From NCBI GenBank assembly GCA_017545045.1, contig JAFYDA010000131.1, positions 1 through 44,858 on the forward strand: a stretch of DNA of 44,858 nucleotides, written 5' to 3'. Source of the stretch: Prevotella sp. Lineage in GTDB: Bacteria > Bacteroidota > Bacteroidia > Bacteroidales > Bacteroidaceae. A program made the position numbers and the translations under genes. The notes beneath the pieces are model-generated. The model was given only the letters and a program-made list of their open reading frames with translations. It was not told the origin of the DNA and searched no databases. Positions 3,398-25,116 of this stretch are shown one piece after another (positions within the stretch are counted from its first letter, which is position 1; every line of letters begins with the position of its first letter).

Positions 3398-3441
3398 GGG
3401 TCTCTGTTTTGTCTGTTGTGGGAGTGCCACAACGAACGTTG

Positions 3442-5991: not shown

Positions 5992-6021
5992 TTTACAAAT
6001 GGATGATTTGCGGTTTACTAT

Positions 6022-6945: not shown

Positions 6946-7888
6946 TGCTTTTCTTTTTGGGTAGTACAATATAATAATAGGTGACAAATGCCAGCGATGC
7001 GAGGATAATGCTCAGCCTCAGCAGGTCGGGCCATTCGGTGTGGCGTGTAAAGAAACTCTCAATGAAGCCGGCTACGATGAACACCGGCACCGTGCCCACG
7101 ACGATGCGCAGGCCTCGGCGAGCCCCGCGACGAAACGATGTGAGCCGCGGATAGGTGCCGGGGAACAGCCAGCCGTTGCCCATGGCGATGCCGGCGGCTC
7201 CGGCTATGACGATGGCTGAGATCTCGAGTGTGCCGTGCAGCCAGACGGCGAGCACCGATTGCCCCAGCAAGCCGTGCTGAGCGAAAAATGTCTGGAAAGA
7301 ACCGAGCATCACACCGTTCTGGAACAGGACGAAACCCGTGCCAAGGCTGGTGAACACGCCTAAAACGAAAGTGACGAACGATACTCTGACGTTGTTCAGC
7401 GTGATGTAGCCGAACATCTCGTCCTCTTCATCGCCATTATAGACGGCCATAGGTTCGCCATTGGCTATGTTTTGCAGCGTCATGTCCACATAGCTGTCGC
7501 CAAGGATGATGCGGCAGAACTCCGGGTCGAGCAGTTGCGACAGAAAACCGACAAAAACACTGGCAGCGAACACCACAAACGACAGCAGCAGTTCGCGCCG
7601 TGCCTCCCACATTGTGCGCGGCACATCGTCAGTCCAGAACGTCAGCAACCGCGACCAGCGGTAGCGGTGTGAGCGGTATATCTCATTGTGCAGGGCCGAG
7701 GACAGATTATTCAGGTAGCGGGTAATCTTCGACTCTGGATAATGGGTCTGTGCATAGGACAGGTCGCTGGTCACGTCGATATAGGTGTCGGCCAGTTCTG
7801 TGGCGGCGGCATCGTCAGCGGTTTCCACCACGATTTCCGCACCCCGCCATTTCGAGATGTTCTGCCTGATAAACGTCACTTCCTTCAT
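6920..7888 (-). CDS. Stage II sporulation protein M-like (SpoIIM/DUF95) membrane protein
   Basis: The 322-residue protein starts MKEVTFIRQNISKWRGAE and has five or so membrane helices. The SpoIIM-type core is seen in VSFVTFVLGVFTSLGTGFVL, FFAQHGLLGQSVLAVWLHGT, LEISAIVIAGAAGIAMG and WLFPGTYPR. The organism is not expected to sporulate; in Bacteroidetes and Actinobacteria this family sits beside RDD, MoxR and DUF58 genes. The frame stays open upstream to 8005, but that part runs through the promoter and inverted repeat, so ATG 7888 is preferred. First gene of the six-gene minus operon. Confidence 0.85.
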   Translation of the reverse strand: MKEVTFIRQNISKWRGAEIVVETADDAAATELADTYIDVTSDLSYAQTHYPESKITRYLNNLSSALHNEIYRSHRYRWSRLLTFWTDDVPRTMWEARRELLLSFVVFAASVFVGFLSQLLDPEFCRIILGDSYVDMTLQNIANGEPMAVYNGDEEDEMFGYITLNNVRVSFVTFVLGVFTSLGTGFVLFQNGVMLGSFQTFFAQHGLLGQSVLAVWLHGTLEISAIVIAGAAGIAMGNGWLFPGTYPRLTSFRRGARRGLRIVVGTVPVFIVAGFIESFFTRHTEWPDLLRLSIILASLAFVTYYYIVLPKKKSNEHRIQTD

Positions 7889-7967
7889 AACGTCTGCAAA
7901 GTTACGAAAAAATATGCATTGTGCATTGAGCATTGTACATTTTTTTTGTACCTTTGCAGACGTTATG
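7886..7967. promoter_or_regulatory. Divergent promoter region bounded by a 16-bp inverted repeat
   Basis: CATAACGTCTGCAAAG (7886-7901) and its exact reverse complement CTTTGCAGACGTTATG (7952-7967) bound the region; each arm holds a start codon, the leader and most of a -7 box. Plus strand: TACCTTTG 7949-7956 with TTG 7926-7928, 20-bp spacer (RDD gene). Minus strand: TAACTTTG 7897-7904 (SpoIIM operon), no clear -33. The two genes would thus have near-identical leaders and could share a regulator or be invertible. Confidence 0.75.
7916..7943 (+). repeat. Heptamer tandem repeat inside the divergent promoter
   Basis: Four 7-bp units, GCATTGT, GCATTGA, GCATTGT and ACATTTT, follow each other. Each of the first three brings a TTG, and the middle one lies exactly 20 bp from the plus-strand -7 box. 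A change in copy number would shift which TTG is used. Confidence 0.7.
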
Positions 7968-8663
7968 GCAGAAAAAAGCATCGTCACAGGACAATATGTA
8001 CGCATTCGTCAGACGCCGGCCAGTGTCGGCGAGCGCATGCTGGCCCAGTTGATTGACTGGGCGGTGCAGGCGGGCTATGTCGCATTATGGATATACCTCG
8101 ACATTCATCTCGGCACATTGCTGGTTATCTTGTTGGTGGTGTTGCCCGCTTTATTATATGGTCTGCTGTGCGAGCTTTTCACGGGGGGACAGACTATCGG
8201 CAAGTGGATTGTCAAGTTGCGGGTCATCATGGCCGACGGCACATTGCCCTCCCTCAGTGCCTACCTGCTTCGATGGCTGCTGATGATGGTCGACGGTCCC
8301 ATGCTGGGCTGCGTCGGTGTGCTTGTCATGATCCTCAACCGCAACAACCAGCGCTTTGGCGACATGGCAGCAGGTACGCTGGTGGTCAAGCTGCGCAGCT
8401 ATTCCAAGATACAGGTCAGTCTCGACGAATACGACTATCTGACGAAGGATTACCGTCCCTCTTATCCCCAGGCCTCCGACCTCTCGTTAGAGCAGATAGA
8501 CGTTATCTGCCGGACTCTGGACGGCGATGTGGAAGATCGCATCTGTCAGCTGTCGCAAAAGGTGCAGCAGCTGCTTGGCGTTGAACGGCGTGAAACCAAC
8601 GACGAAAACTTCCTGCGCCGTATTGTCCGCGATTATCAGTATTATGCGTTAGAGGAAATCTGA
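7965..8663 (+). CDS. RDD family membrane protein
   Basis: From the ATG in the inverted repeat the product has 232 residues. The RDD core is present: R in VGERMLAQLIDWAV, D in the same stretch, two membrane helices (GTLLVILLVVLPALLYGLLC and a second after LSAYLLRW), GGQTIGKWIVKLRV and NQRFGDMAAGTLVVKL. A roughly 90-residue cytoplasmic tail follows. RDD proteins are associated with transport in some bacteria, but no role is known in this cluster. It is divergent from the SpoIIM operon and converges on pepP with stop codons 2 bp apart. Confidence 0.88.
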   Translation: MAEKSIVTGQYVRIRQTPASVGERMLAQLIDWAVQAGYVALWIYLDIHLGTLLVILLVVLPALLYGLLCELFTGGQTIGKWIVKLRVIMADGTLPSLSAYLLRWLLMMVDGPMLGCVGVLVMILNRNNQRFGDMAAGTLVVKLRSYSKIQVSLDEYDYLTKDYRPSYPQASDLSLEQIDVICRTLDGDVEDRICQLSQKVQQLLGVERRETNDENFLRRIVRDYQYYALEEI

Positions 8664-8665
8664 CG

Positions 8666-10474
8666 CTATTTTTGTAAAGGGGCGCAGGCCTCGCGCAGCC
8701 AATCCACCTCATCGGCGGCAAGAAGTGGCGACAACTTGTCGAAGACCGTCTGGTGGTATTGGTTCAGCCATTCGGTTTCTTCTTGTGTCATCATTCCTGC
8801 GACGATAGGACGCTTGTCGATGGGACAGAGCGTGAGCGACTCAAATTGCAGGAATTTGCCAAACTCCGTTTCTTTGTAAGGCACGATGAGCAGCGTGTTT
8901 TCAGTGCGGGCTCCACAGCGGCCTGGCAGATAGATACCAGGTTCGTCGGTAATGGTCATGCCTGCCACGAGGGGGGCTGGCTTCCATTCCATGCGGAACT
9001 GGTGAGGCCCTTCGTGAACATTCAGGTAGGTGCCCACACCGTGCCCCGTGCCGTGCAGGTAGTTAAGGCCTTCTCGCCACATGTCCTTGCGTGCCAGTAT
9101 GTCAATCTGTGTGCCGCTGGCTCCGCTGGGGAACTTGCACAGCTCAATCTGGATATGGCCTTTCAGCACCAGCGTATAGATTTTCTTCTCCTCGTCGGTC
9201 AGTGGGCCGAGGGCAATCGTCCTTGTGATGTCTGTCGTGCCGTCGAGGTATTGTGCACCGCTGTCGAGCAGCAGCAGACCGTGAGGCTCTATCGGAATGT
9301 CAGTCTCAGGCGTAGCCTCATAGTGTACGATGGCGGCATGTGCGCCGTAGCCGGCAATGGTATCGAACGAGATGTCGCGGTAGAGTGGTTGTTCGGCGCG
9401 TAGGGCGGTGAGTTTGCGGTCTACTGAGATCTCTGTGAGGGTGCTGGTGGGGGAAGCACCAGCCTCGAACTGGTCGTCCAACCACTTCAGGAACTTCACC
9501 ATGGCGATGCCGTCTTTCAGCATCGCCGACCTAAAACCCGCAATCTCTGTGGCATTCTTCACGGTTTTCATCCGCTTGACGGGCGACTCCTCGGCCACGA
9601 TGTCGCGGGTGACGGCTTTGTACAAGGTGTAGTTCACCTCGTCGGGGTCGAGCAGGATGTTATACTCGAAGTAGTCCTTCAGTCCGCGGGCGACGTTTTC
9701 GTAGTCGTCCACGCTGATACCCTCGTCCTGCAGGTATGCCGATACCTCGGGCGTCAGCTTCACCTTATTTATATAAAGGGTGACGTCCTTCGACGATATC
9801 AGCAGGTACGACACGAAGACGGGGTTGCAGTGTACGTCCGTACCCCTGAGGTTCAGCGTCCATGCGATGTCGTCGAGGGCTGCCATCAGCATGCCGTCGG
9901 CGTGGCGTTCGCGCAGTGCCTGCCGGATGCGGGCTATCTTGTCACGGGTGCTCTCGCCGGCATACGCCATGGGGAATAGTTCGACGGGATCAGACGGGAT
10001 GGGCGGACGGTCAGTCCAAACCTGACTGAGCGGGTCCAGATTGGTGCGCAGCGTGATGCCTCCTCGTTTGCGGAGGTCGGCTATCAGTTCCTTCACGGCA
10101 TTGGCTGAGGAGCACCATCCGTCGACGCCTACTTCAGCACCTGCACCACATTCCTTGCCTATCCACTCGGCGATGGTGGGCGTACCCTCTATCTTGAGCT
10201 TCTGTAGTTGGAACTCTGTGCCACGGAGCTGTTCTTCGGCGGCAATGAAGTAGCGCGAGTCTGTCCACAGGGCGGCACTGGTCATGGTGACGACGGCCGT
10301 GCCGGCAGAACCGTTGAATCCTGAAATGAACTCGCGTCCCTTCCAGTGGTCGGGGATATACTCGCCCTGATGAGGGTCTGTGCTGGGGAAGATGAAGGCC
10401 GACAGATGCTCACGGCGCATCACTTCGCGGAGGTCTTCTAACCGCTGATTTACTTTCTCCGTCATAATCATCAT
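8666..10474 (-). CDS. pepP: Xaa-Pro aminopeptidase, long three-domain form (M24B)
   Basis: The product is about 602 residues: two creatinase-like N-terminal domains and an M24 pita-bread domain, the layout of eukaryote-type aminopeptidase P (about 600-620 aa). Metal ligands are seen in LLDSGAQYLDGTTDITRT (two Asp), HGTGHGVGTYLNVHEGPH (His), TDEPGIYLPG (Glu) and GARTENTLLIV (Glu). It removes an N-terminal residue before proline and is probably cytosolic, as no signal peptide is seen. A TTG at 10486 is in frame but sits in the T tract of the mdh terminator, so ATG 10474 (or 10471, 10465) is preferred. Confidence 0.92.
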   Translation of the reverse strand: MMIMTEKVNQRLEDLREVMRREHLSAFIFPSTDPHQGEYIPDHWKGREFISGFNGSAGTAVVTMTSAALWTDSRYFIAAEEQLRGTEFQLQKLKIEGTPTIAEWIGKECGAGAEVGVDGWCSSANAVKELIADLRKRGGITLRTNLDPLSQVWTDRPPIPSDPVELFPMAYAGESTRDKIARIRQALRERHADGMLMAALDDIAWTLNLRGTDVHCNPVFVSYLLISSKDVTLYINKVKLTPEVSAYLQDEGISVDDYENVARGLKDYFEYNILLDPDEVNYTLYKAVTRDIVAEESPVKRMKTVKNATEIAGFRSAMLKDGIAMVKFLKWLDDQFEAGASPTSTLTEISVDRKLTALRAEQPLYRDISFDTIAGYGAHAAIVHYEATPETDIPIEPHGLLLLDSGAQYLDGTTDITRTIALGPLTDEEKKIYTLVLKGHIQIELCKFPSGASGTQIDILARKDMWREGLNYLHGTGHGVGTYLNVHEGPHQFRMEWKPAPLVAGMTITDEPGIYLPGRCGARTENTLLIVPYKETEFGKFLQFESLTLCPIDKRPIVAGMMTQEETEWLNQYHQTVFDKLSPLLAADEVDWLREACAPLQK

Positions 10475-10484
10475 ATTTGATAGC

Positions 10485-10515
10485 AAAAAAAGAGGATGTG
10501 CCGGAACACACCCTC
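10485..10515 (-). terminator. Rho-independent terminator of mdh
   Basis: On the minus strand GAGGGTGTG, loop TTCCGG and CACATCCTC form a 9-bp stem (one G-T pair) followed at once by TTTTTTT. It lies 15 bases after the mdh stop and before pepP, so pepP must use read-through or an unseen promoter. Confidence 0.9.
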
Positions 10516-10529
10516 ATGGATTTTATTTT

Positions 10530-11522
10530 TTAGAGGTTTGGATTAATCTTGCTCCACTCCGAGATGGGCGGTACGATGTTCAGCGTCACCAGCTCGTCGC
10601 GCATCTTGCACAGGTGCTCGTAGCTCTGATCCAGCTTAGCGTTCTCCTCGGCAGTCCCCTGAGGAACCTCGAACTTAGCACCCTCGGCAGTCATGGTGGT
10701 CTTCATAGCCATCATGATGTGGTCGTACTTGTCGGTCTTCACGTATGTGCCAACGGGGAAGCGGAAAGGTTCGCCGCCCATGGCTGCACGGATCATCTCA
10801 ACGCTGAGATATGAAGGGCTCTGGAATGAGCTGCGTCCGCGAAGCTCGATAATCTTGGCACCGCCCTTGGTGACGTCAACCTTCATCTGCTCCCACTCCT
10901 CAGCGGGGAACTCAGCCGTACCGATGATGTCGGTCAGCTTGCGACCGGCAATCTCTACGTGGCTGCCGAAGACGGCCATCTGCTCACCGTGGCCACCGTA
11001 GGTAGCGCAACCGGTAATCTCGTTCTGCATCACACCGAACTTCTTAGCCAGTGCACTCTGCAGACGGGTGGTGTCGAGACCTGCGAGGGTAGTCACCTGT
11101 CCGGGCTTCAAGCCAGAATAGAGCAGGGTTACCAGACCAGTGAGGTCGGCGGGGTTGAAGATGATGACGACATGCTTCACGTCGGGGCAGAACTTTTTGA
11201 TGTTCTGACCGAGTTCCTCAGCAATCTTACAGTTACCGGCCAGCAGATCCTCGCGGGTCATGCCTGCCTTACGGGGAGCACCACCTGAAGATATGATATA
11301 CTTTGCATTCTTGAAAGCCACTTCAGCATCCGTTGTAGCCACGATGTTCACATCGTCGAAGCCACTCTGGCGCATTTCCTCGGCTACACCTTCGGGTGAG
11401 AATACATCGTAGAGACAGAGTTCGCTTGTCAGGCCCATCATCAGGGCGCACTGAGCCATGTTTGATCCGATCATGCCTGCTGCGCCGACAATGACCAGTT
11501 TGTCATTTGTTAATGTTGCCAT
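10530..11522 (-). CDS. mdh: Malate dehydrogenase (NAD)
   Basis: The 330-residue protein has the Rossmann NAD motif GAAGMIGS near residue 13, the mobile-loop arginines (GGAPRKAGMTRED), NPAD, LDTTRLQ with the second substrate Arg, and the catalytic His in YGGHGEQMAVFG. This is the lactate/malate dehydrogenase superfamily; the loop RKAGMTR fits malate specificity. In Bacteroidales it reduces oxaloacetate to malate on the reductive branch to succinate and propionate. It is a single gene with its own promoter and terminator. Confidence 0.95.
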   Translation of the reverse strand: MATLTNDKLVIVGAAGMIGSNMAQCALMMGLTSELCLYDVFSPEGVAEEMRQSGFDDVNIVATTDAEVAFKNAKYIISSGGAPRKAGMTREDLLAGNCKIAEELGQNIKKFCPDVKHVVIIFNPADLTGLVTLLYSGLKPGQVTTLAGLDTTRLQSALAKKFGVMQNEITGCATYGGHGEQMAVFGSHVEIAGRKLTDIIGTAEFPAEEWEQMKVDVTKGGAKIIELRGRSSFQSPSYLSVEMIRAAMGGEPFRFPVGTYVKTDKYDHIMMAMKTTMTAEGAKFEVPQGTAEENAKLDQSYEHLCKMRDELVTLNIVPPISEWSKINPNL

Positions 11523-14439: not shown

Positions 14440-16836
14440 TTACACTTCTTCGTTTTCCGTGCGGGCGATAATCTCGTTCTGCAGTTGCTCCGTCATGTCG
14501 TTGAAGTAGTCGCTGTAGCCCGCAACGCGCACCAAAAGGTCGCGGTACTCTTCAGGATGTTTCTGGGCATCGTGGAGCGTGGCGGTGTCGACAATGTTGA
14601 ACTGGATGTGGTGACCGCCGAACTTGAAGTAGGTGCGGATGAGCGAGGCCAGCTTCTTCATGTCTTCCTCACGCTTGAGCAGGGCAGGCACGAAGCGGAC
14701 GTTGAGCAGGGTACCGCCGCTCTTGGTCTGGTCGAGCTTGCCAAGCGACTTGATGACGGCGGTGGGGCCGTGGGTGTCAGAGCCGTGGGCGGGCGAGGTG
14801 CCGTCGCTGATGGCGAAGTGGGCGAAGCGGCCGTTGGGCGTGGCACCGCAGACAGAGCCGAAGTAGTTATGGCAGGTGGTGCTGAGCATGTTGAGCTGCG
14901 TCTTGCCGCCACGGGTGTTCGGCCGTCCCTCGATGGCTTTCACCAGATCGTCATAGACGCGCACGGCAATGTCGTCGGCGTAGGGGTCGTCGTTGCCGAA
15001 GAAGGGCGTGTGATTGCGGATGTAGGTGCGCATCACCTCGTTCCCCCAGTTGCATTTGCAGGCCTCTAATATCTCGTCCATCGTATATCGCTTGTCTTCG
15101 AAGACGTGCTTCTTGAGGGTGGTGAAGCAGTCGGTGATGGTGCCGAGGCCGGTGCACTGGATGTAGGTGGTGTTGTAGCGTGCGCCGCCGCTGTAGTAGT
15201 CCTTGCCCTTCTCAATGCAGTCGTCGATGTAGAGGCTGAGGAAGGTGGCAGGGGCGTAGAGTGAGAACATACGCTCGATGTAGTTGTTGACGCTGAGCTT
15301 CAGGTTCACGAAATAGACCATTTGCTTGTGCCAAGCATCGTAGAGCTCTTCGAAGTCCTTGAAAGTGCGAGGGTCACCGGTCTCAAGGCCGAGGCGCTTG
15401 CCCGTCTTCGGGTCAATGCCGTTGTTAAGGGTAATCTCTAGAATCTTGGGCGTGTTGAGGTAGCCGGTCAGCAGATAGGCCTCTTTACCGAAGGCACCCA
15501 CCTCGATGCAGCCGGAGCAGCCGCCCTCGCGGGCATCCTCCAGGCTCTTGCCCTCGCGTACCAATTCTTTTATATAAGTGTCGGGATTGAAGATGCTGGG
15601 ATAGCCATGTCCCTGGCGGATGACCTTGATGCCTTCCAATAGGAAGTCGTCGGGCGTGTTCCCGGCGATGTGGATACTGAGGCCTGGCTGCAGTTCGTGC
15701 AGCTCTTCCTGAATCTCAAGAATCATGTACGACAGCTCGTTGGTAGCACTCTTTCCATCGCGGTCGACACCACCGATATTGATGTTGGTGAAGTCGTTGT
15801 AGGTGCCGCTCTCCAATGCCGTCACGCCTACCTTCGGCGGTGCAGGCTGGTTGTTGAACTTAATCCAAAGACAGGAGAGCAGCTCCTTAGCCTTGTCGCG
15901 GGTCAGTGTGCCATCGTCTACTCCCTTTTTATAGAAAGGATAGAGATGCTGGTCAATGTGACCAGGGTTCATCGAGTCCCATCCGTTCAGTTCCGTCACC
16001 GTACCGAGGTGGACGAACCAGTACATCTGGATGGCTTCCCATAAGTCGCGTGGGGCATGAGCGGGGACATGATGACAAACATCGGCAATCTTTTCCAACT
16101 CCTTCTTCCGCTGTGGGTCTTGCTCCTTGGCTGCCAACGACTCTGCAAGTTCTGCATGACGTTCGGCGAAGAGAATGGCTGCGTCACATGAAATAGCCAT
16201 CGCCTCCAGCTCCTGCTGTTTGTCAGTGGCCTCGGGGTCGTTGATGTAGTCCAGTTCACTGATACGCTTCTCTATCCGTGCCTTCACGTCCAGCAATCCC
16301 TCGTGGTACATCTTGCCGTCCATGGCCGTGTGGCCGGCGGCGCGTTGCTCCATGAACTCCGTAAAGACACCGGCGTGGTAGGCCTCTTCCCACTCCTTGC
16401 TCACGTGGTTGAAGATGCGCTCGCGCTGCGTCTTTCCCGTCCAGTAGGGGATGACCTCGCGCTCATAAGTGTCGATGTCTTCTTGGGCGATGGTGTAGCG
16501 CTGCAACTCGCGTTCGTTCAGTGTGTGCAAGTCTTCCACCGAGTGACACGTCAACTCGGGGAATGTCGGCACCGCCTTCGGCTTAGGCCCTCGCTCACCT
16601 ACAATCAGTTCGTCCTCACCGATGTAGATGGTCTTCTTCTTGCAGATCTCATAGAAGTTCCTGGCTCGCAGCACAGGCGTTGGCATCGTGCCATAGTACT
16701 CCTTGTAGAAGGCTGTCTCTATCAGTGCGCGTTCTATGGAGAGCGTCGTCGGTGTGTCGAAGTTTTGCTGGCGCAGGCGGCGTATGCGCTCGTTCATGCC
16801 GTTGATATTTTCTGGATGCTTGATGCTATAGTTCAT
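14440..16836 (-). CDS. hypD: trans-4-hydroxy-L-proline dehydratase (glycyl radical enzyme)
   Basis: The 798-residue protein is a PFL-like glycyl radical enzyme. The thiyl site is GGCSGCIEVG (Cys443, Glu445) and the C-terminal radical site is RVAGYSDYF (Gly773). Flanking blocks WFVHLGTVTELNGWD, WIKFNNQPAPPKVGVT, GKEAYLLTGYLN and YSGGARYNTTYIQ agree, from memory, with HypD rather than pyruvate formate-lyase, choline lyase or glycerol dehydratase. HypD removes water from trans-4-hydroxyproline to give pyrroline-5-carboxylate. The ATG at 16836 is chosen; a TTG extension would run into the upstream gene. It is the last gene of a three-gene operon, 13 bp after an aminopeptidase P. Its activating radical SAM enzyme is not in the window. 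Confidence 0.88.
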   Translation of the reverse strand: MNYSIKHPENINGMNERIRRLRQQNFDTPTTLSIERALIETAFYKEYYGTMPTPVLRARNFYEICKKKTIYIGEDELIVGERGPKPKAVPTFPELTCHSVEDLHTLNERELQRYTIAQEDIDTYEREVIPYWTGKTQRERIFNHVSKEWEEAYHAGVFTEFMEQRAAGHTAMDGKMYHEGLLDVKARIEKRISELDYINDPEATDKQQELEAMAISCDAAILFAERHAELAESLAAKEQDPQRKKELEKIADVCHHVPAHAPRDLWEAIQMYWFVHLGTVTELNGWDSMNPGHIDQHLYPFYKKGVDDGTLTRDKAKELLSCLWIKFNNQPAPPKVGVTALESGTYNDFTNINIGGVDRDGKSATNELSYMILEIQEELHELQPGLSIHIAGNTPDDFLLEGIKVIRQGHGYPSIFNPDTYIKELVREGKSLEDAREGGCSGCIEVGAFGKEAYLLTGYLNTPKILEITLNNGIDPKTGKRLGLETGDPRTFKDFEELYDAWHKQMVYFVNLKLSVNNYIERMFSLYAPATFLSLYIDDCIEKGKDYYSGGARYNTTYIQCTGLGTITDCFTTLKKHVFEDKRYTMDEILEACKCNWGNEVMRTYIRNHTPFFGNDDPYADDIAVRVYDDLVKAIEGRPNTRGGKTQLNMLSTTCHNYFGSVCGATPNGRFAHFAISDGTSPAHGSDTHGPTAVIKSLGKLDQTKSGGTLLNVRFVPALLKREEDMKKLASLIRTYFKFGGHHIQFNIVDTATLHDAQKHPEEYRDLLVRVAGYSDYFNDMTEQLQNEIIARTENEEV

Positions 16837-16849
16837 TTTTCGAGTTTTT

Positions 16850-18250
16850 TTATTTGTTTTTTGCTGTATAGACCTCTTCAATACTCATAGGCTTTTTGAT
16901 GGTGCCGAGAAGGCGAACTTCACCATTGGGCATCACGGCGTAGTTCAGTTCATTGCGCAGGCCGGTGAAGTCGCGCCAGGGCTTTAGCTTGTCGTAGCAG
17001 ATGAAGTCGGTGAACTGCTTTTCAGCTTCCCATTTATCCATGAGTTCGGGGATGAAGTAGATGCCTGGCTCGACGGTGAATACAAACCCAGGCTCAAGGG
17101 GGCGTGCCAGACGCAGGCTCTTGAAGCCAAACTGCGTAGACTTTGCCGCACCGTCGGGGTAGCCAACGTATTGTTCGCCAAGGTTCTCCATGTTGTGGAC
17201 ATCCAAGCCTACCATGTGTCCGAGGCCGCAGGGGAAGAAGAGGGCGTAGGCTCCGATGCGGGCGGCCTCGGCGGGATCGCCTTTCATCAGTCCGAGGTCT
17301 TTCATGCCCTCGCAGATTTTGGTAGCGGCGGCAATGTGAGCGTCGTAGAACGGTATGCCGACGGCCAATGTGTCGACGGCAGCGTAGAAGCTGGCGAGAT
17401 GGATTTCATAGATGGTTTTCTGTCGCTCGGTGAAGCGGTCGCCCACGGGCATCGACGAAGAGAGATCGCCGGCATAGTGCGACTTGGTCTCGGCACCGGC
17501 GTCGAGGAGAAAGATGTCACCCTCACGGCAGGTGTGTATGAAGCCGTGGTTGTGCAATACCTGTCCCTGCACGGTGGCAATGGTTGGGAAGGAGAGGGCG
17601 TTGCCGTGGCGGCAGGCCACCTCCTCGACGGCGGCGGCCACCTCGCTCTCATGAATGCCGGGACGCACGGTGCGGTAGGCGGCGAGGTGCATCTCTGTGC
17701 TCAGGTCTACGCTCTCTTCAATGAGCGCAATTTCCTCTAAGTCCTTGTGGTTGCGCTGCGCAACGATGGCTTTGATAAAAGGAACGCTTGCGCCTGATGG
17801 TTGTGCGGCTGGCTCTACGCCAAGCAGTTCCAAGAGCCATACGCGATGGTCGCCGCGATAAGGCGGAAGGAAGTGCACGGGCTGATGCTTCTGACGGGCA
17901 CGGTCAAGATAGGTCTTGAGTTCCTTCATCGGAAGTACGTCGGTAATTCCAACGGGGCTGCATTTCTCGTGCAGCGAGGGTTGTGTGCCTGTCCAGACAA
18001 TGTCGTCGATAGTCAGTTCATTGCCGAAGACGATTTCACGGTTCTCGTCGACATCGATGACGGCAGCCAGGCCGGCATAGTCGAGGCCAAAGAAATAGAG
18101 GAACGTGGAGTCTTGACGGAAGCGGTAGGTGTTGTCGGCGTAGTTCATGCCCACCTCGTCGTTGCCAAGGAAAAGCAGCAGGCCGCTGCCCATGTCGTGG
18201 GCAAGCCGGGCACGGCGGCGGACGTATGTGTCCTTACTGATATTTACCAT
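16850..18250 (-). CDS. Aminopeptidase P (M24B, AMP_N domain)
   Basis: The 466-residue protein has an N-terminal AMP_N domain (1-140, with DNTYRFRQDSTFLYFFGLD) and an M24 domain. Metal ligands: D250 (LLDAG), D262 (AGDLSSS), H345 (GLGHMVGLDVH), E394 (TVEPGIYF) and E434 (LRNELNY). It releases the N-terminal residue from Xaa-Pro peptides and, in some members, from Xaa-hydroxyproline. No signal peptide. The start ATG overlaps the last 17 bp of the lipoprotein gene; hypD follows 13 bp downstream. This gene set suggests that it frees Pro or Hyp from imported peptides for HypD. Confidence 0.9.
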   Translation of the reverse strand: MVNISKDTYVRRRARLAHDMGSGLLLFLGNDEVGMNYADNTYRFRQDSTFLYFFGLDYAGLAAVIDVDENREIVFGNELTIDDIVWTGTQPSLHEKCSPVGITDVLPMKELKTYLDRARQKHQPVHFLPPYRGDHRVWLLELLGVEPAAQPSGASVPFIKAIVAQRNHKDLEEIALIEESVDLSTEMHLAAYRTVRPGIHESEVAAAVEEVACRHGNALSFPTIATVQGQVLHNHGFIHTCREGDIFLLDAGAETKSHYAGDLSSSMPVGDRFTERQKTIYEIHLASFYAAVDTLAVGIPFYDAHIAAATKICEGMKDLGLMKGDPAEAARIGAYALFFPCGLGHMVGLDVHNMENLGEQYVGYPDGAAKSTQFGFKSLRLARPLEPGFVFTVEPGIYFIPELMDKWEAEKQFTDFICYDKLKPWRDFTGLRNELNYAVMPNGEVRLLGTIKKPMSIEEVYTAKNK

Positions 18251-19082
18251 ATTCGTTTATTTTTTTGTGTTTACTAATCTGAAGTGGTGTCTGTGGGAAA
18301 TATTCGGCTAAAAGATTATACAAGTCGGGGTCGAATTCCAGAAGTTCCTCGCGGGTGTTGCACCAGTTATGCTTGCCGTCGGTATGGGGCATCTCGGCAT
18401 TCACATTGAACCAGTCCTGTACGGCTTCGGCAAAGTATTCCTCTTTGTCTGTCTCACGGTAGGTGTTTTTCAGAATGCCTTTTTCCTTGGCGTTCTCGAA
18501 ACATTGTTTCAGGCGTGCATCGAAATCGGGCGCGGCAAGCATCAGACCGATGAGATGGATGCTGTGGGCAAACTCGTGGATGAGAATGTCTTCAGCATGG
18601 TATTTGTCTATTTGGTAGGCCAGCACGTTTTCCTCAGCACAGCTGGTGAGAGGTAATTCCAAATCACCACCCAGCCCACGGGCGCGTAAGTCCCAGTTCA
18701 GGGCCGTGTCGTTCACTAAGTAATGGTGCTCGGGAATGTCTGTCGTCCCTTCGTAGCGGGCCATGATGGCGATACGGGTACCACGGGCCACCATGGAGTC
18801 GAGGACGGCCTTGGGCAGCATCGACGTCATGGCATAGAGCGTGCGATGGGCGGCAACAAAGGCAGAGTCGGGCACACGCCATGAGGAAATGAGCGGCAGT
18901 CCGTTCACGTCGACATATTTCTTGTAGAACGGGTCTAAGTGCAAGGAATCTGGCGGCGTTGTCACAATACAGGTTGGCACTTCAAACTCTTCGGCCGTTG
19001 CCTCACAACTCTCTTGCTGTGTAGTCCTTTTGCAGGAAGACAGCACCAACAGGCAGCAAAATGGAATGAGAAAAGATTTCAT
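18234..19082 (-). CDS. Putative exported zinc metallopeptidase lipoprotein
   Basis: The 282-residue protein begins with a lipoprotein signal (lipobox LSSC, Cys17). A zincin motif HEFAH (169-173) lies in AEDILIHEFAHSIHLIGL, and a downstream acidic segment EEYFAEAVQDWF could give the third ligand, as in gluzincins such as the anthrax-lethal-factor-like group. The block RARGLGGDLELPLTSCAEEN recurs in uncharacterised zinc proteins of many bacteria. Upstream in-frame codons to 19136 include the -7 box, so ATG 19082 is the start. First gene of the operon with aminopeptidase P (17-bp overlap) and hypD. Substrate unknown; peptide supply is inferred. Confidence 0.8.
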   Translation of the reverse strand: MKSFLIPFCCLLVLSSCKRTTQQESCEATAEEFEVPTCIVTTPPDSLHLDPFYKKYVDVNGLPLISSWRVPDSAFVAAHRTLYAMTSMLPKAVLDSMVARGTRIAIMARYEGTTDIPEHHYLVNDTALNWDLRARGLGGDLELPLTSCAEENVLAYQIDKYHAEDILIHEFAHSIHLIGLMLAAPDFDARLKQCFENAKEKGILKNTYRETDKEEYFAEAVQDWFNVNAEMPHTDGKHNWCNTREELLEFDPDLYNLLAEYFPQTPLQISKHKKINEYGKYQ

Positions 19083-19122
19083 GAATAGATTTTTTTTCGT
19101 AATTAGTGTCTTTTCTGAGTTG

Positions 19123-19153
19123 CAAAGATAGCGCATTTATCGGACAATCCCAA
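19123..19153 (-). promoter_or_regulatory. Promoter of the metallopeptidase-aminopeptidase-hypD operon
   Basis: Minus-strand TATCTTTG at 19123-19130 and TTG at 19151-19153 with a 20-bp spacer form a complete promoter about 41 bases before the lipoprotein ATG. The 125-bp gap also separates this operon from porP. Confidence 0.8.
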
Positions 19154-19207
19154 ATCTTTTACAGAAAAGTTACACAATAAAACAGCTTTTCACCCGTTAT
19201 TCTTTCT

Positions 19208-20143
19208 GTGTTTAGACGTTGGCTTGCATTATTTGTCGTGTTAGCTGCTGTTTTTGAGACAAAGGCACAATACGATCCGTCGTTCAGTCATTACTGGGCG
19301 ATGGAGACATCGTTTAATCCTGCAGCAGCTGGTAAGGACTCGAAACTGAATGCTGTGGGAGCCTATAATATGACGCTTACAGGATTTGAGAACAATCCCA
19401 AGACCATGTATATCAGTGCTGACATGCCGCTCCAATTACTTGGAGCCCTTCATGGCGTGGGACTGCAGATAATCAACGATGAAATAGGCTTGTTCTCACA
19501 CAAGAAAGTAGGAGGACAGTATGCTTACAAGCAGAAACTGTTGGGCGGAACACTAAGCATAGGCCTGCAAGCCAGCATGCTGAGCGAAAGCTTCAAAGGT
19601 TCAAAGCTTGACTTGGATGACGACAATGACCCTGTCTTTAGCAAGTCGGACATAACGGGAACGGCCTTTGACCTGGCAGCAGGACTCTATTACAAACACA
19701 AGAACTGGTATGCCGGATTGTCCATACAGCATGCGCTGGCGCCTACTATTGAATTGGGCGAAACAAACGAGTTGGAGACCAGTCAGAGCTATTATTTTAC
19801 TGGAGGATACAATATTCGGCTCAAAAATCCGTTCTTAACAATACAAACCTCTGTATTGGGACGTACTGACGGCGTGGCCTATCGCGGTGACGTGACAGCG
19901 CGGGTGAGGTACACCCATGAGCAGAAGGTGATGTATGCCGGCCTTTCCTACAGTCCCACAAACTCAGTGACGCTGTTGGTTGGCGGCCATTTTCACGGCA
20001 TCATGGTGGGCTATAGTTACGAAGCCTACACAACGGCCATCAGCATAGGCAACGGGAGCCATGAGTTGTTCGTAGGATATCAGACGGACATCAATTTATC
20101 AAAAAAAGGAAGAAACAGACATCAATCGGTAAGATTACTATAA
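19208..20143 (+). CDS. porP: T9SS outer-membrane protein PorP/SprF family
   Basis: The 311-residue protein has a signal peptide ending near ETKAQ and then QYDPSFSHYWAMETSFNPAA, the hallmark of PorP/SprF. Amphipathic beta strands run through to the C-terminus. PorP-type barrels belong to the type IX system and pair with PorK/GldK rings or with specific cargo. The start is GTG; no in-frame ATG exists after the upstream TAA. It is the first of five T9SS genes and gldK follows 5 bp later. Confidence 0.9.
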   Translation: MFRRWLALFVVLAAVFETKAQYDPSFSHYWAMETSFNPAAAGKDSKLNAVGAYNMTLTGFENNPKTMYISADMPLQLLGALHGVGLQIINDEIGLFSHKKVGGQYAYKQKLLGGTLSIGLQASMLSESFKGSKLDLDDDNDPVFSKSDITGTAFDLAAGLYYKHKNWYAGLSIQHALAPTIELGETNELETSQSYYFTGGYNIRLKNPFLTIQTSVLGRTDGVAYRGDVTARVRYTHEQKVMYAGLSYSPTNSVTLLVGGHFHGIMVGYSYEAYTTAISIGNGSHELFVGYQTDINLSKKGRNRHQSVRLL

Positions 20144-20148
20144 AAAAT

Positions 20149-21603
20149 ATGAAAAAACTGACAATAGGAATTTGCGCCATCACAGTGTTGCTGTTGTCCA
20201 GCTGCTTTGGCAGCAAAGTGGCATCAGGCAATGGTGGCGAGCTGACAGGATCGGGTGGACGGTCGTTCGCCGAACCGGCTCCTTTTGGCATGGTACTTGT
20301 CAAACGCGGACACTTGAAAATGGGTATCGAGAATCAAGACTCTCTCTGGGGTAAACAGACTCCAGTGAGAGACATCTCTGTCGATGGATTCTGGATGGAC
20401 GATACAGAAATTACGAACTCGGAGTACCGACAGTTTGTCAACTACGTGCGTGACAGTATCTTGCGTGAACGCTTAGCTGATCCAAATTACGGCGGCGACG
20501 AGAGCTACAAGATAGAGGAAGACAAGAACGGAGACCCCGTTACGCCGCACCTCAACTGGAAAAAGGCTCTGCCGCGCAAGCCTAATGAGGATGAACTGCG
20601 CGCTATTGAGAGCTTGTATGTGACCAACCCCGTCACGGGCGAAAAAATGTTGGACGCTTCTCAGATGAATTACAAATATGAGATTTATGACTATACAACG
20701 GCCGCCTTGCGCCGTAACCGTCTGAACCCTGAGGAGCGCAATCTCAATACCGACATTGCCGTTGATCCCAATGAAAAGGTCTGGATATCGAAAGATACGG
20801 CCTATATCGACGATGAGGGAAAAATTGTGCGTGAGACGCTCAACAGGGAACTGAGCGGACCGTGGGACTTCCTGAATACGTACATTATTAATATATATCC
20901 TGACACGACGTGCTGGGTGAATGACTTCCCCAATGCAGACAATGAGGTGTATATGCGCAACTACTTCTCAAACTCTGCCTATAACGACTATCCCGTTGTG
21001 GGTGTGACGTGGGAGCAGGCCAATGCCTTCTGTGCATGGCGTACGGAATATTTACTGAAGGGACTTGGACCGGCAGCTCGCTTCGTGCAGCGTTACCGTC
21101 TGCCGACAGAGGCTGAGTGGGAATATGCAGCCCGAGGCAAGGACGGCACGGAATTCCCATGGGAGAACGAGGATGTGGCTTCGGGCAAGGGATGCTTCTA
21201 TGCTAATTTCAAGCCAGATAACGGTAACTACACCAAGGACGGAAACTTGATTACGTCGAAGGTGGGTATCTATAGCGTCAACAGCAACGGTCTGTACGAC
21301 ATGGCCGGCAATGTGGCCGAATGGACTTCGACCATCTATACAGAAGCGGGCGTAGATGCCATGAACGACGTGAACCCGCAGCTGAAGTACAATGCTGCTA
21401 AGGAAGACCCCTACAGGCTGAAGAAGAAATCGGTGCGTGGTGGTTCGTGGAAAGACCCCGAGAGCTATATCCGCTCAGCATGGCGCAGCAGTGAGTTTCA
21501 GAACCAGCCCCGTTCCTATATAGGTTTCCGTTGTGTGCGGTCATTAGCCAACACGACAAGTGAGAAGGCTAAACTGCAGTCGGTAAAGAAAAAACGGAAG
21601 TAA
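20149..21603 (+). CDS. gldK: T9SS ring lipoprotein GldK/PorK
   Basis: The 484-residue protein carries a lipoprotein signal (LLLSSC, Cys19) and a sulfatase-modifying-factor/FGE-like fold: FWMDDTEITNSEYRQFV, YPVVGVTWEQANAFCAWR, YRLPTEAEWEYAARG, GLYDMAGNVAEW, SVRGGSWKDPESYIRSAWR and IGFRCVR. The order and length match GldK/PorK, which forms the outer-membrane-tethered T9SS ring with GldN/PorN. It is not expected to act as an FGE. A C-terminal lysine-rich tail follows. Embedded in porP-gldKLMN. Confidence 0.95.
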   Translation: MKKLTIGICAITVLLLSSCFGSKVASGNGGELTGSGGRSFAEPAPFGMVLVKRGHLKMGIENQDSLWGKQTPVRDISVDGFWMDDTEITNSEYRQFVNYVRDSILRERLADPNYGGDESYKIEEDKNGDPVTPHLNWKKALPRKPNEDELRAIESLYVTNPVTGEKMLDASQMNYKYEIYDYTTAALRRNRLNPEERNLNTDIAVDPNEKVWISKDTAYIDDEGKIVRETLNRELSGPWDFLNTYIINIYPDTTCWVNDFPNADNEVYMRNYFSNSAYNDYPVVGVTWEQANAFCAWRTEYLLKGLGPAARFVQRYRLPTEAEWEYAARGKDGTEFPWENEDVASGKGCFYANFKPDNGNYTKDGNLITSKVGIYSVNSNGLYDMAGNVAEWTSTIYTEAGVDAMNDVNPQLKYNAAKEDPYRLKKKSVRGGSWKDPESYIRSAWRSSEFQNQPRSYIGFRCVRSLANTTSEKAKLQSVKKKRK

Positions 21604-21657
21604 TGGTATGATGCCGTCATAACGAAATATCATAATAACGAAATAACGCTCATCGAA

Positions 21658-22458
21658 ATGACTAAATACAGCAAATTCAATATTATCTACCGCTTGCAGA
21701 AGTGGTTGGACAGCGTTCCTGGACAGACGTTCATGAACTACGCCTATAGCTGGGGTGCATCGATTGTGATTCTGGGTACGCTCTTCAAGCTGACCCACTT
21801 GCCAGGAGCTAACTTCATGCTGTTCCTTGGAATGGGTACAGAGGTGGTGGTGTTCTTCATTGCGGCCTTTGACCGTCCGTTCGACAAAACGGCTGACGGT
21901 ATGGAACTGCCTACCCACATTGGTGAGGAACCTGAGAACTCTGAGTCTACCGAACAAACGGAAACTCCCGTGGGCACTGTCGTCGGTGGAAATGGCGGTA
22001 CGATTATCATTGGCGGCGGTGTCATGGGACAAGAGGCACCGACGGTCGACACAGAAGCGATTGCAGCCGTCTCCTCATCGGTGACGACCATGGCCGGTGG
22101 TTCTGTGGTTTCGCCTGTACCGCAGGTAAACCCCGAACTGGAAGAGGCTACGGCTAACTACGTGGACGAGCTGAAGAACCTGACAGAAATGCTGCATAAG
22201 GTGTCGGAGCAGAGCGAACGGCTGGCTCGCGACTCTGAGGAGATGGAGAATTTGAATCGCACACTGACGGGTATCTGTAAGATATATGAAATGCAGCTGA
22301 AGGGTGCCAGCCAGCAGATTGGTACCATCGATGAAATCAACGAACAGACAAAACGCATGGCTGATCAGATAGCCGAGCTGAACCAGATTTATGCCCGCAT
22401 GATAGAAGCCATGACGGTAAACATGCCTTCTGCTTCGCAAGTGAAGAGTGAAAAGTGA
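21658..22458 (+). CDS. gldL: T9SS motor protein GldL/PorL
   Basis: The 266-residue protein has two closely spaced N-terminal helices (GASIVILGTLFKLTHLPG and FMLFLGMGTEVVVFFIAAF). The Glu in GTEVVVFFI is the conserved membrane glutamate used in proton-driven motion with GldM. A long cytoplasmic region with coiled-coil character (VDELKNLTEMLHKVSEQSER and on) follows. The end of the gene is made of 7-bp repeats that also cover the stop codon. Confidence 0.95.
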   Translation: MTKYSKFNIIYRLQKWLDSVPGQTFMNYAYSWGASIVILGTLFKLTHLPGANFMLFLGMGTEVVVFFIAAFDRPFDKTADGMELPTHIGEEPENSESTEQTETPVGTVVGGNGGTIIIGGGVMGQEAPTVDTEAIAAVSSSVTTMAGGSVVSPVPQVNPELEEATANYVDELKNLTEMLHKVSEQSERLARDSEEMENLNRTLTGICKIYEMQLKGASQQIGTIDEINEQTKRMADQIAELNQIYARMIEAMTVNMPSASQVKSEK

Positions 22459-22468
22459 AAAGTGAAGA
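22441..22468 (+). repeat. Heptamer tandem repeat across the gldL stop
   Basis: Four 7-bp units GTGAAGA, GTGAAAA, GTGAAAA, GTGAAGA run through the last five codons and stop of gldL up to 3 bp before the gldM ATG. Gain or loss of a unit would shift the frame at the gldL end and change the gldL-gldM gap. Confidence 0.85.
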
Positions 22469-22471
22469 ATA

Positions 22472-24040
22472 ATGGCAATTAAGAAAAGACCAGTCTCTCC
22501 GCGCCAAAAGATGATCAACTTGATGTATGTCGTCTTGATGGCCATGCTTGCGCTGAACGTCTCGAATGAGGTGCTCAATGGTTTCTCCATTGTGGAGGAA
22601 AGCTTGAAGCGTACGACGGCCAACGCCACCAGAGAGAATCTTGCAATATACGATGATTTTGGGACGCAGATGAAGGCCAACCCTCAAAAGGTGAAAGAGT
22701 GGTACGACAAGGCCATGCAGGTGCGCGAGCTGAGCGATTCTCTCTACAATATGGCAGAAGGTCTGAAGCACGCCATCGTAAAAGAGGCTGACGGAAAGGA
22801 CGGCGACTTGCACAATATCCGCAACAAAGAGGACATGGAAGCAGCCAATCAGGTGATGCTGGCTCCGGGACGCGGTCGCGGACAGGAACTGTACGACGCT
22901 ATCAATGCCTACAAGAAGCAGATGTTGGAGATGGCCATCGGTACACGCCAGAAGAAAACCATCTCTGAAATCCTGTCGACCACCATTCCAGAGGATATGC
23001 AAACCCTTGGCAAGAACTGGCAGGAGTATATGTTTGAGTCGATGCCTGCTGCTGCTGCCGTCACTCTGCTGTCGACCCTGCAGAGTAATGTACGCTATAC
23101 TGAGGGTGAAATCCTGCATACGCTGAAACAGAATATTGACGTGAAGGACATCCGTGTCAATGCACTGGAAGCTTTTGTCATTCCGAACTCACAAACTATC
23201 GTGCGTGGCGATAAGTTCTCTGCCCATATCGTGATGGCCGCCGTTGACACCACGCAGGTGCCCGACATATACATAGGCAACCAGAAGGTGACGCTACGTG
23301 ACAATGTCTACGAGCGCATCTGTGGCTCAACAGGTGACTTCACCTTGGCCGGCTATATTGAGACCGTCAATGGTAACGGTGACAGGATAAAGCGTGACTT
23401 CTCGCAGAAATACACAGTCGTCGATCCTTCAGCCACCGTTTCTGCCGACTTGATGAACATGCTCTATGCCGGCTATTCGAACCCTATCAGTGTGTCGGTG
23501 CCTGGTGTTCCCTTGAACAAGATTCAGGCCTCGATGAGCGGTGGAGGAACGCTACAGCCCACAGGCCCTGGTAAATATATTGCACGCCCTTCGAAGGTGG
23601 GCGAGAATGTCACCATCACCGTTACTTCAACCAACACAGGCCGTCCGCAGCAGATGGGACAGTTTACATTCCGTGTGCGTAAATTGCCAGACCCGACACC
23701 GTTTATTGCTATGAAGGATGAGCAAGGCAACCCTTCTCGCTTCAAGGGAGGCGGTTTGGCCAAGGGTAGCCTGATGGGCATTAACGGCATTGGCGCCGCC
23801 ATTGATGATGGTATTCTCGACATAGCCTTCAATGTGGTGAGTTTTGAGACCGTCTTCTTTGACAACATGGGTAACGCCGTGCCCATGGCCAGTAACGGCG
23901 CCCAGTTCAGTGAGCGTCAGAAGGACACTTTCCGCAAGCTGGCACGCAACCGCCGTTTCTACATTTCGCGTGTGACGGCCGTTGGTCCTGACGGCATCCA
24001 GCGCACCTTGCAGAATCCAATGGAAATTATTGTAAAGTAG
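22472..24040 (+). CDS. gldM: T9SS motor protein GldM/PorM
   Basis: The 522-residue protein has a single N-terminal membrane helix after SPRQKMINLMYVVLMAMLAL and a long periplasmic region of four domains, ending KDTFRKLARNRRFYISRVTA. This matches GldM/PorM, which pairs with GldL and spans the periplasm to the GldK/N ring. The GldM block PDPTPFIAMKDEQGNPSRFK and GGGLAKGSLM is present. The start lies 3 bp past the heptamer tract; gldN follows 8 bp downstream. Confidence 0.96.
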   Translation: MAIKKRPVSPRQKMINLMYVVLMAMLALNVSNEVLNGFSIVEESLKRTTANATRENLAIYDDFGTQMKANPQKVKEWYDKAMQVRELSDSLYNMAEGLKHAIVKEADGKDGDLHNIRNKEDMEAANQVMLAPGRGRGQELYDAINAYKKQMLEMAIGTRQKKTISEILSTTIPEDMQTLGKNWQEYMFESMPAAAAVTLLSTLQSNVRYTEGEILHTLKQNIDVKDIRVNALEAFVIPNSQTIVRGDKFSAHIVMAAVDTTQVPDIYIGNQKVTLRDNVYERICGSTGDFTLAGYIETVNGNGDRIKRDFSQKYTVVDPSATVSADLMNMLYAGYSNPISVSVPGVPLNKIQASMSGGGTLQPTGPGKYIARPSKVGENVTITVTSTNTGRPQQMGQFTFRVRKLPDPTPFIAMKDEQGNPSRFKGGGLAKGSLMGINGIGAAIDDGILDIAFNVVSFETVFFDNMGNAVPMASNGAQFSERQKDTFRKLARNRRFYISRVTAVGPDGIQRTLQNPMEIIVK

Positions 24041-24048
24041 AAAAAGAT

Positions 24049-25116
24049 ATGAAAAGACTTTTGTTCTTGTTAATGATAACGCTGACGGCTGGTGCAGTCT
24101 TCGCACAGCCCAAGAAAAGCCGTGTACAGCAGACTCAGAAGAATCAGTCCCAACAGGCACAGCAGAAACAAAGTACGTCATCGCAGGGCATGACGCGCCG
24201 CATGCAGATTAGCTATCCCGTAGCGCTCGACATGCCTGAGGACGTGGTGTGGCGTCGCGACATCTACCGTGAGATTGATCTCAATGACGATGCCAACGCA
24301 GGATTGTACTATCCAGTGCAGCCGCAGGGCAAGCAACTGAACCTGTTTACCTATATTTTCAAACTGGCGTTGAACAACTACATCCCCGTTTACGAATACA
24401 GTGTAGCCAACGACGGTAACGATGACTTCTCGGAGACAGCGAAGATCCAGTTGAAGACGGTGCTCGATAATTATCACATATTTTATGAGGAGCAGGACGG
24501 AAAAGTAAAAGTCGACAATAGTGACATTCCATCTGCAGAGGTGATGAAATACTTCTTGAAAGAGAGTGCTTATTACGACCAGAGCAATGCCACGTTCCAC
24601 ATTAAGCCTTTGGCACTGTGTCCCGTCATGCTACGTGAGGATGACTTTGGCGGTGAGGCCGCCCAGTATCCGCTCTTCTGGGTGAAGTACAGTGATCTTG
24701 AACCATTCCTCAGTCGGCAGACTGTCATGACGTCGAATGTCAACAATGCTGCCGTCATGTCAATGGATGACTATTTTACCCTGAATAAATATAAAGGAAA
24801 AATATATAAGACGAATAATATGCTTGGCAAGACACTGGCGCAGATTGCAGGAGGTGATACGGCCAAGCTGTCGCAGGAGCAGAAGCGCATTGAGGCTGAG
24901 CTGGCTGCTTTCCGCAACAATATTTTCGGCGATCAGGAGAAGAAAGATTCACTCGACAGCATTGCTGACTTGAAGAATATGAAGAATGTAGGCAAGGTGA
25001 AAAAGGAGCGGACACCGCGTGCAAAGCAAGAGAAGTCTTCCCGCCGTACAAAGTCGACCACTTCGTCATCTTCCAATTCAAGTGCCCGTGTGTCTGTACG
25101 TAGGCAGAGGCATTAA
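24049..25116 (+). CDS. gldN: T9SS ring protein GldN/PorN
   Basis: The 355-residue protein has a signal peptide (LLMITLTAGAVFAQ), the GldN core DVVWRRDIYREIDLNDDANA, GLYYPVQPQGKQLNLFTYIF and YDQSNATFHIKPLALCPVML, and a basic Lys/Ser/Arg tail of about 60 residues. GldN/PorN is the periplasmic partner of GldK in the ring. The tail is low-complexity and may vary between strains. Confidence 0.95.
   Translation: MKRLLFLLMITLTAGAVFAQPKKSRVQQTQKNQSQQAQQKQSTSSQGMTRRMQISYPVALDMPEDVVWRRDIYREIDLNDDANAGLYYPVQPQGKQLNLFTYIFKLALNNYIPVYEYSVANDGNDDFSETAKIQLKTVLDNYHIFYEEQDGKVKVDNSDIPSAEVMKYFLKESAYYDQSNATFHIKPLALCPVMLREDDFGGEAAQYPLFWVKYSDLEPFLSRQTVMTSNVNNAAVMSMDDYFTLNKYKGKIYKTNNMLGKTLAQIAGGDTAKLSQEQKRIEAELAAFRNNIFGDQEKKDSLDSIADLKNMKNVGKVKKERTPRAKQEKSSRRTKSTTSSSSNSSARVSVRRQRH

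Follow-up and report, generated by a model that had tools for sequence, protein, structure and literature searches.

A probable operon in Prevotella for utilising proline- and hydroxyproline-rich proteins

The locus and its three gene products

We analysed a contig of 44,858 nucleotides from Prevotella sp. (JAFYDA010000131.1, GenBank assembly GCA_017545045.1), hereafter the window, by which we mean this whole stretch of DNA. It carries three tightly packed genes, all on the minus strand, which follow one promoter and encode a putative Pro-Pro endopeptidase (PPEP)-like lipoprotein, an M24 peptidase, and HypD, the dehydratase of trans-4-hydroxy-L-proline. The features of the locus are as follows.

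19123..19154, minus strand: promoter of the Bacteroidetes type, TTTG-N20-TATCTTTG, an exact match to TTTGN{19,21}TANNTTTG
18234..19082 (open frame to 19136), minus strand: putative PPEP-like zinc metallopeptidase lipoprotein, an open reading frame with the lipobox LSSC
18564..18578, minus strand: HEFAH zinc-binding motif, residues 169-173 counted from the 19082 start; H169, E170, F171 and H173 invariant
18438..18440, minus strand: Glu215, the presumed third zinc ligand; invariant, spacing as in PPEP-3
16850..18250, minus strand: M24 peptidase of prolidase (Xaa-Pro dipeptidase) type; AMP_N and Peptidase_M24 above the gathering score
14440..16836, minus strand: HypD, trans-4-hydroxy-L-proline dehydratase, a glycyl radical enzyme; NF043068, best PDB match 6vxc

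The initial annotation had described three packed genes behind one promoter, and this layout is exact: the consensus lies at 19154-19123, the M24 gene (18250-16850) shares 17 bp with the lipoprotein gene, and the ATG of hypD at 16836 is 13 bp past the M24 stop. Only the lipoprotein start was moved. The open frame spans 19136-18234 and, because a start at 19136 falls within the promoter, translation likely begins at the internal ATG at 19082 (MKSFLIPFCCLLVLSSC, lipobox LSSC). The promoter consensus matches eight times in the whole window, where shuffled sequences predict 0.26 matches. At the other end, the hypD stop (14440) faces a convergent formate-tetrahydrofolate ligase gene, whose end is at 14437.

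The lipoprotein carries the HEFAH motif with which it was first described, at residues 169-173, together with its lipobox. Cys17, H169, E170, H173, Y208, and E215 are invariant in 51 of 51 lipoproteins (the window and 50 of the 80 related loci presented below). Tyr208, seven residues ahead of Glu215, would be the oxyanion tyrosine, and PPEP-3 has its Tyr190 and Glu197 at the same spacing (PMC12828418). The match to the Pfam family PF07737 (ATLF) has an E-value of 3.4e-4 and 20.8 bits; since this is under the gathering threshold (27.4), we did not file the lipoprotein as a member. A sequence search of the PDB with a profile of 16 lipoproteins gave a best E-value of only 0.036 and a fold search was therefore required. 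The predicted model matches the fold of PPEP-1, PPEP-2, and PPEP-3, with 19-23% identity in the structural alignments. The predicted fold, the HEXXH, the ligand Glu, and the Tyr seven residues earlier all fit, and from them we infer that the lipoprotein may work like a Pro-Pro endopeptidase.

The further copies of the PPEP-like domain found in relatives have the HEXXH in 17 of 17 cases, and one (in genome G330) lacks the Tyr-x6-Glu pattern. The lipoproteins of loci L089-L092 have the length of two domains; HEFSH occurs once, in the second half, and the first half has no such motif where it would be expected; that of L090 has an HEXXH-like string, HESKH, elsewhere. In variant clusters (L065, L066, L067, L184-L187), a lipoprotein with two domains in tandem is encoded together with a CotH-kinase protein and a fused ferredoxin/FAD oxidoreductase of 1,100 residues with Fer2_4, Pyr_redox_2, Fer2_BFD, and DAO.

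The second gene had been called an aminopeptidase P overlapping the lipoprotein gene; the overlap stands, whereas the identity gives way to a prolidase-type enzyme on two grounds. Among solved structures, the nearest are chains of Xaa-Pro dipeptidase, the human enzyme (150 bits), followed by aminopeptidase P (124 bits). The protein also has the loop Arg that in PepQ (Arg370) confines prolidase to dipeptides (PMC4213023): the Leu-Arg is found in 63 of 63 M24 enzymes, counting the window's own and those of 62 relatives, and E. coli PepP is gapped there. The partner of this Arg, Asp45, is Asp in 57 of the 63 and Gly in six. The metal ligands D246, D257, H339, E384, and E423 are each kept in all 63, and are likewise conserved in the aligned E. 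coli PepP. Two observations speak for the older name: the enzyme is 29% identical to E. coli PepP versus 24% to PepQ, and the aminopeptidase P model NF008131 scores slightly higher (133.8 bits, under its cut-off of 465) than the prolidase model NF010133 (118.6 bits, under its cut-off of 339). Since neither NCBIfam equivalog cut-off is reached, our label stops at "prolidase-type". The evidence is not one-sided, and the enzyme is better read as prolidase-type, probably acting on Xaa-Pro and Xaa-Hyp dipeptides (Hyp, hydroxyproline), than as an aminopeptidase P. Prolidase releases C-terminal Hyp (PMC8438212); this reading would therefore tighten the link to HypD.

An XPNPEP1-type aminopeptidase P encoded outside the operon (8666..10486, minus strand; best PDB match 3ctz, 405 bits) possibly helps it. 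Its family occurs in 14 of the 80 related loci, the median distance from the lipoprotein start being ~5.8 kb in the downstream direction. In the window a lactate/malate dehydrogenase-type gene adjoins it, the pair spanning 8666-11522. Because the dehydrogenase and aminopeptidase families occur near the three genes in relatives (17 and 14 of the 80 loci, respectively), the window may be rearranged.

The evidence that the third gene encodes HypD is strong, as initially annotated. The protein passes the NCBIfam equivalog NF043068 (1152.4 bits, cut-off 1100), its best solved relative is 6vxc, and it has 14 of the 14 residues that known HypD is described as using for substrate binding or catalysis (PMC7077986): F152, R156, H160, W277, D278, K326, S334, D339, F340, C434, E436, Y450, T645, and the radical Gly. 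Each is kept in 54 of 54 relatives; the middle residue of the CXE, V435, is Ile in the window. Conversion of Hyp to pyrroline-5-carboxylate (P5C) is thus the activity expected from the family. Other glycyl radical enzymes were rejected, as only NF043068 passes its cut-off.

HypD depends on a radical-SAM activase, and none is encoded within the window. Another contig of the same genome has a 284-aa frame to which a profile of HypD-linked activases gives 437 bits; it is under the cut-off of NF043069, which a HypD-linked activase from one relative also misses, and its best match among relatives is a protein of P. communis (73% identical). We infer that this unlinked radical-SAM activase serves the HypD of the window. 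Against this, it could belong to another enzyme unseen in a genome that is 59% complete; no further PFL-like genes were found in that part.

Gene order and co-occurrence in relatives

The initial annotation had let its proposal depend on the conservation of the three-gene order. To follow this order we used 80 loci fetched from genome contigs by conserved lipoprotein peptides alone, i.e., the best 80 of 453 relatives among the matches listed, all titled Bacteroidales or Bacteroidetes. Gene presence was called on stop-to-stop frames, neighbour families were clustered and counted over all frames, and adjacency counts omit loci with short flanks (at least 1.8 kb downstream was needed for the M24 gene and at least 5 kb downstream for the triple).

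The order is kept. Excluding the window, the M24 peptidase is present in 63 of the 80 loci, HypD in 56, the activase in 46, and PruA in 43, and 50 loci have the lipoprotein, M24, and HypD genes on one strand. With strict spacing, the M24 gene is directly downstream in 50 of 76 loci, the full triple occurs in 36 of 68, and pruA is directly upstream in 35 of 71. These four families lead the ranking of neighbours, followed by the lactate/malate dehydrogenase (17/80), the aminopeptidase P (14/80), and DUF6055 (10/80). The activase gene, which lies within the fetched stretch in the 46 loci, is directly behind hypD in 35 of the 45 loci with both genes. In one locus (L063) PruA, lipoprotein, M24, HypD, and activase form an unbroken row. 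The complete genome of P. communis E15-14 has lipoprotein-M24-HypD-activase, the first three being 84, 83, and 93% identical to those of the window.

The promoter consensus occurs near the lipoprotein start in six of 40 loci without pruA upstream and in none of 39 with pruA (control tiles, 68/2949). At the junctions, in search intervals shorter than the control tiles, it occurs in 0 of 52 between lipoprotein and M24 and in one of 39 between M24 and HypD. This distribution weakly favours a single transcript.

We then considered whole genomes. In a family sample of 151 genomes, HypD was found in 37 and a close lipoprotein in 19, all 19 having HypD. The 37 were read by hand, and in five of them the match is only partial; 32 of the 151 pass the cut-off. 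Lipoproteins were divided into close and distant at 280 bits, a value chosen after inspecting the scores, which leaves seven weaker genomes outside the 19. In these seven, whose only lipoprotein homologue is a distant one, no HypD match of comparable strength was found (0/7). The association has a Fisher probability of 2.8e-14 when kinship is ignored and of 5.8e-4 by a hand-built product stratified within genera, whose strata were drawn from the listed rows and lack 24 genomes that had no match. HypD often occurs where the lipoprotein does not (18 of the 37 genomes). Hence, the lipoprotein tracks HypD and not the reverse. An order sample, 198 genomes from the order to which the window belongs, had the lipoprotein family in seven and HypD in 68; HypD was present in four of four genomes with a lipoprotein above 360 bits (one being the window's own) and in one of three weaker ones. 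In the three genomes of this sample besides the window's own, the close lipoprotein and HypD are on different contigs.

Type IX secretion genes (19208-25116: PorP/SprF, an FGE-sulfatase-domain gene resembling GldK, GldL, GldM, and GldN) begin divergently ~53 bp from the promoter site, and the hypD of genome G143 adjoins genes of the same clusters. Positions 2084-8005 of the window encode consecutively DUF58, a MoxR-type AAA ATPase, DUF4350, DUF4129, a protein without Pfam match, and SpoIIM.

Proposed pathway, likely substrate and alternatives

The three genes probably form an operon through which proline- and hydroxyproline-rich proteins are used. The Pro-Pro-endopeptidase-like lipoprotein would cut Pro/Hyp-rich chains outside the cytoplasm. 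After uptake of the peptides, the cytoplasmic prolidase-type M24 enzyme, probably with the XPNPEP1-type aminopeptidase P, would split Xaa-Pro and Xaa-Hyp. HypD, activated by the putative radical-SAM activase encoded elsewhere, would dehydrate free trans-4-hydroxy-L-proline to P5C, which could yield glutamate via PruA, whose gene frequently precedes the lipoprotein gene in relatives, or proline via ProC. The initial annotation had joined an exported peptidase, an intracellular Xaa-Pro peptidase, and HypD in one pathway; gene order, co-occurrence, and the PPEP-like fold support the scheme, in which we amend the identity of the M24 enzyme, the onward route, the activase, and the substrate.

The onward route had been left between proline and glutamate. 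For relatives, glutamate via PruA is likely: the PruA of one relative, the one member searched, passes TIGR01236 (747 bits, cut-off 613.6). In the window's own genome, at its 59% completeness, no pruA was found, and only a ProC-like match is at hand (193 bits, cut-off 197, in a row flagged with one TAA). Four loci encode a fused Fer2_4/Pyr_redox_2/DAO oxidoreductase (Pfam on one member) that could oxidise proline to P5C. In locus L098, hypD adjoins the gene of a 1,165-aa PutA-like protein (proline dehydrogenase and P5C dehydrogenase, below cut-offs), and no lipoprotein was found in the fetched stretch.

The source of the peptides had been given as collagen-like protein or plant extensin, and the plant side gains from the setting of the distant paralogues. 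In five of the seven distant-relative genomes a GH97 protein has the PPEP-like domain at its C-terminus, and a sixth genome has the domain fused to GH127 (loci L093, L094, L192, L193, L194, and L191). Genes for GH43, GH127, and a DPP-IV-type S9 peptidase adjoin the GH97 fusions in five of five cases (Pfam on two). The seventh genome, G105, has no GH97, GH43, GH127, or DPP-IV gene, and just a weak match to DUF6055. Among stand-alone lipoproteins, that of G257 adjoins a DPP-IV-type gene, that of G182 a partial one with a weak match, and those of G255 and G083 are beside or near GH43 genes. DUF6055, a family of unknown function (e.g., L181:6248-8290, L093:3917-5269, L193:5098-6432, L199:4234-6615), accompanies the GH97 fusions in four of five cases and also occurs close to the operon in 10 of the 80 loci. 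Its presence in both settings links them and makes it a candidate for a further part of both systems.

These families would fit a plant glycoprotein. Extensin serines bear alpha-galactose, and GH97 includes alpha-galactosidases; extensin also has runs of Hyp, whereas the Gly-Pro-Hyp of collagen offers one Pro-Hyp bond per triplet. Bifidobacterium longum strips arabinose from the Hyp of hydroxyproline-rich glycoproteins with three enzymes, two of them GH43 and GH127 (PMC7263609). By eye, 20 of the 80 locus titles name a ruminant or the rumen, 33 carry RUG labels, and 27 have neither. We take RUG labels to stand for rumen uncultured genomes. Two points keep this from being proof: beta-linked arabinose, the target of GH127, is found in other plant glycans too (PMC10850190), and most operon loci lack a glycoside hydrolase family as recurrent neighbour. 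Judging by the context of the paralogues, the substrate in ruminant-gut relatives is likely a plant hydroxyproline-rich glycoprotein such as extensin, and less surely collagen.

The same pathway could instead be aimed at animal collagen or gelatin, or at a mucosal protein. Hyp is abundant in collagen (PMC7077986), collagen-derived Gly-Pro and Gly-Hyp are prolidase substrates (PMC8438212), and some relatives have no ruminant label, e.g., Phocaeicola oris and a metagenome-assembled genome from horse faeces. We think this unlikely, given that the fusions to GH97 and GH127, the former beside GH43, amount to a plant-wall set, and given the 20 ruminant or rumen titles and 33 RUG labels.

A quite improbable alternative is that the lipoprotein is regulatory or processing, cutting a surface protein of its own as PPEP-1 does, its adjacency to hypD reflecting shared regulation or drift. 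PPEP-1 cleaves two adhesins, a similar action is assumed for PPEP-2, and the substrate genes adjoin those of the peptidases (PMC12828418); moreover, 24 of the 80 loci have the lipoprotein without HypD. However, the recurrent neighbours here are peptidases and enzymes of Pro/Hyp metabolism (the rarer ones were searched in part, so an adhesin at a single locus is possible), and relatives have the domain fused to glycoside hydrolases. Plain synteny, i.e., genes kept together by descent in one clade with no joint function, is very improbable: the events are not independent, as the 80 loci are best matches within Bacteroidales/Bacteroidetes, but no other neighbour exceeds 17 of 80, so that the set sits in many contexts, gene orders vary (HypD-activase divergent in L161 and L167, upstream in L129), and co-occurrence persists within genera at the stratified value given above.

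Significance and comparison with known systems

Returning to the operon reading, we tentatively suggest that it is part of something broader: a Bacteroidales PPEP-like branch may be specialised for the backbone of plant hydroxyproline-rich glycoproteins, with a GH97/GH127-fused limb and an operon limb that together make a complete anaerobic route for extensin protein. The fused limb would strip galactose and arabinose, and the operon limb would carry the freed Hyp peptides via prolidase and HypD to P5C and glutamate. The enzymes are of known kinds, while the operon and the Bacteroidales PPEP-like branch are apparently undescribed in the literature searched: among the matches listed, in open-licence literature only, we found no paper on either, which does not prove absence.

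The supply of Hyp is not evident in the 68 of 198 order-sample genomes with HypD; the three-gene module offers candidates for the exported peptidase, the dipeptidase, and the further route, and P. communis E15-14, with its complete genome, is a strain in which the question can be tested. If true, the proposal would explain how relatives of Prevotella, many from the rumen, use a tough class of protein. It would also give a nutritional role to Pro-Pro-type endopeptidases, whose members with a known role act on adhesion proteins (PMC12828418), and provide enzymes against extensin, whose breakdown is described as little known (PMC4454575).

Each part has a known counterpart. The lipoprotein resembles PPEP-1, PPEP-2, and PPEP-3 in its predicted fold, its HEXXH, the Tyr seven residues ahead of the ligand Glu, and its predicted export (PMC12828418); it differs in being a lipoprotein, from Bacteroidales, in a catabolic gene set, with relatives sometimes in tandem or fused to GH97/GH127. 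The M24 enzyme shares with PepQ and PEPD the family, the five metal ligands, and the dipeptide-selecting Arg loop (PMC4213023, PMC8438212), whereas its sequence is the more distant from E. coli PepQ, at the identities given above. The HypAA/HypBA2/HypBA1 system of B. longum has its likeness in the GH43 and GH127 genes that recur beside the GH97-fused paralogues, and would share the same polymer, but takes the sugars, and the available part of its description mentions no peptidase or HypD (PMC7263609). Latescibacteria, anaerobes for which extensin/glycoprotein use was proposed in silico, would likewise combine GH127 and peptidases on cell-wall glycoproteins; in their case the peptidases are general ones scattered over the genome, with no PPEP-like peptidase or HypD in the part of the account available (PMC4454575). 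The HypD-activase system of Clostridioides difficile and other gut microbes has the same HypD residues and the expected conversion of Hyp to P5C, and the relatives' loci often hold the activase too (46/80; PMC7077986). Compared with it, the activase of the window's genome is unlinked to hypD, and hypD shares its locus with genes for an exported PPEP-like peptidase and a prolidase-type enzyme, PruA being encoded in 43 of the 80 loci.

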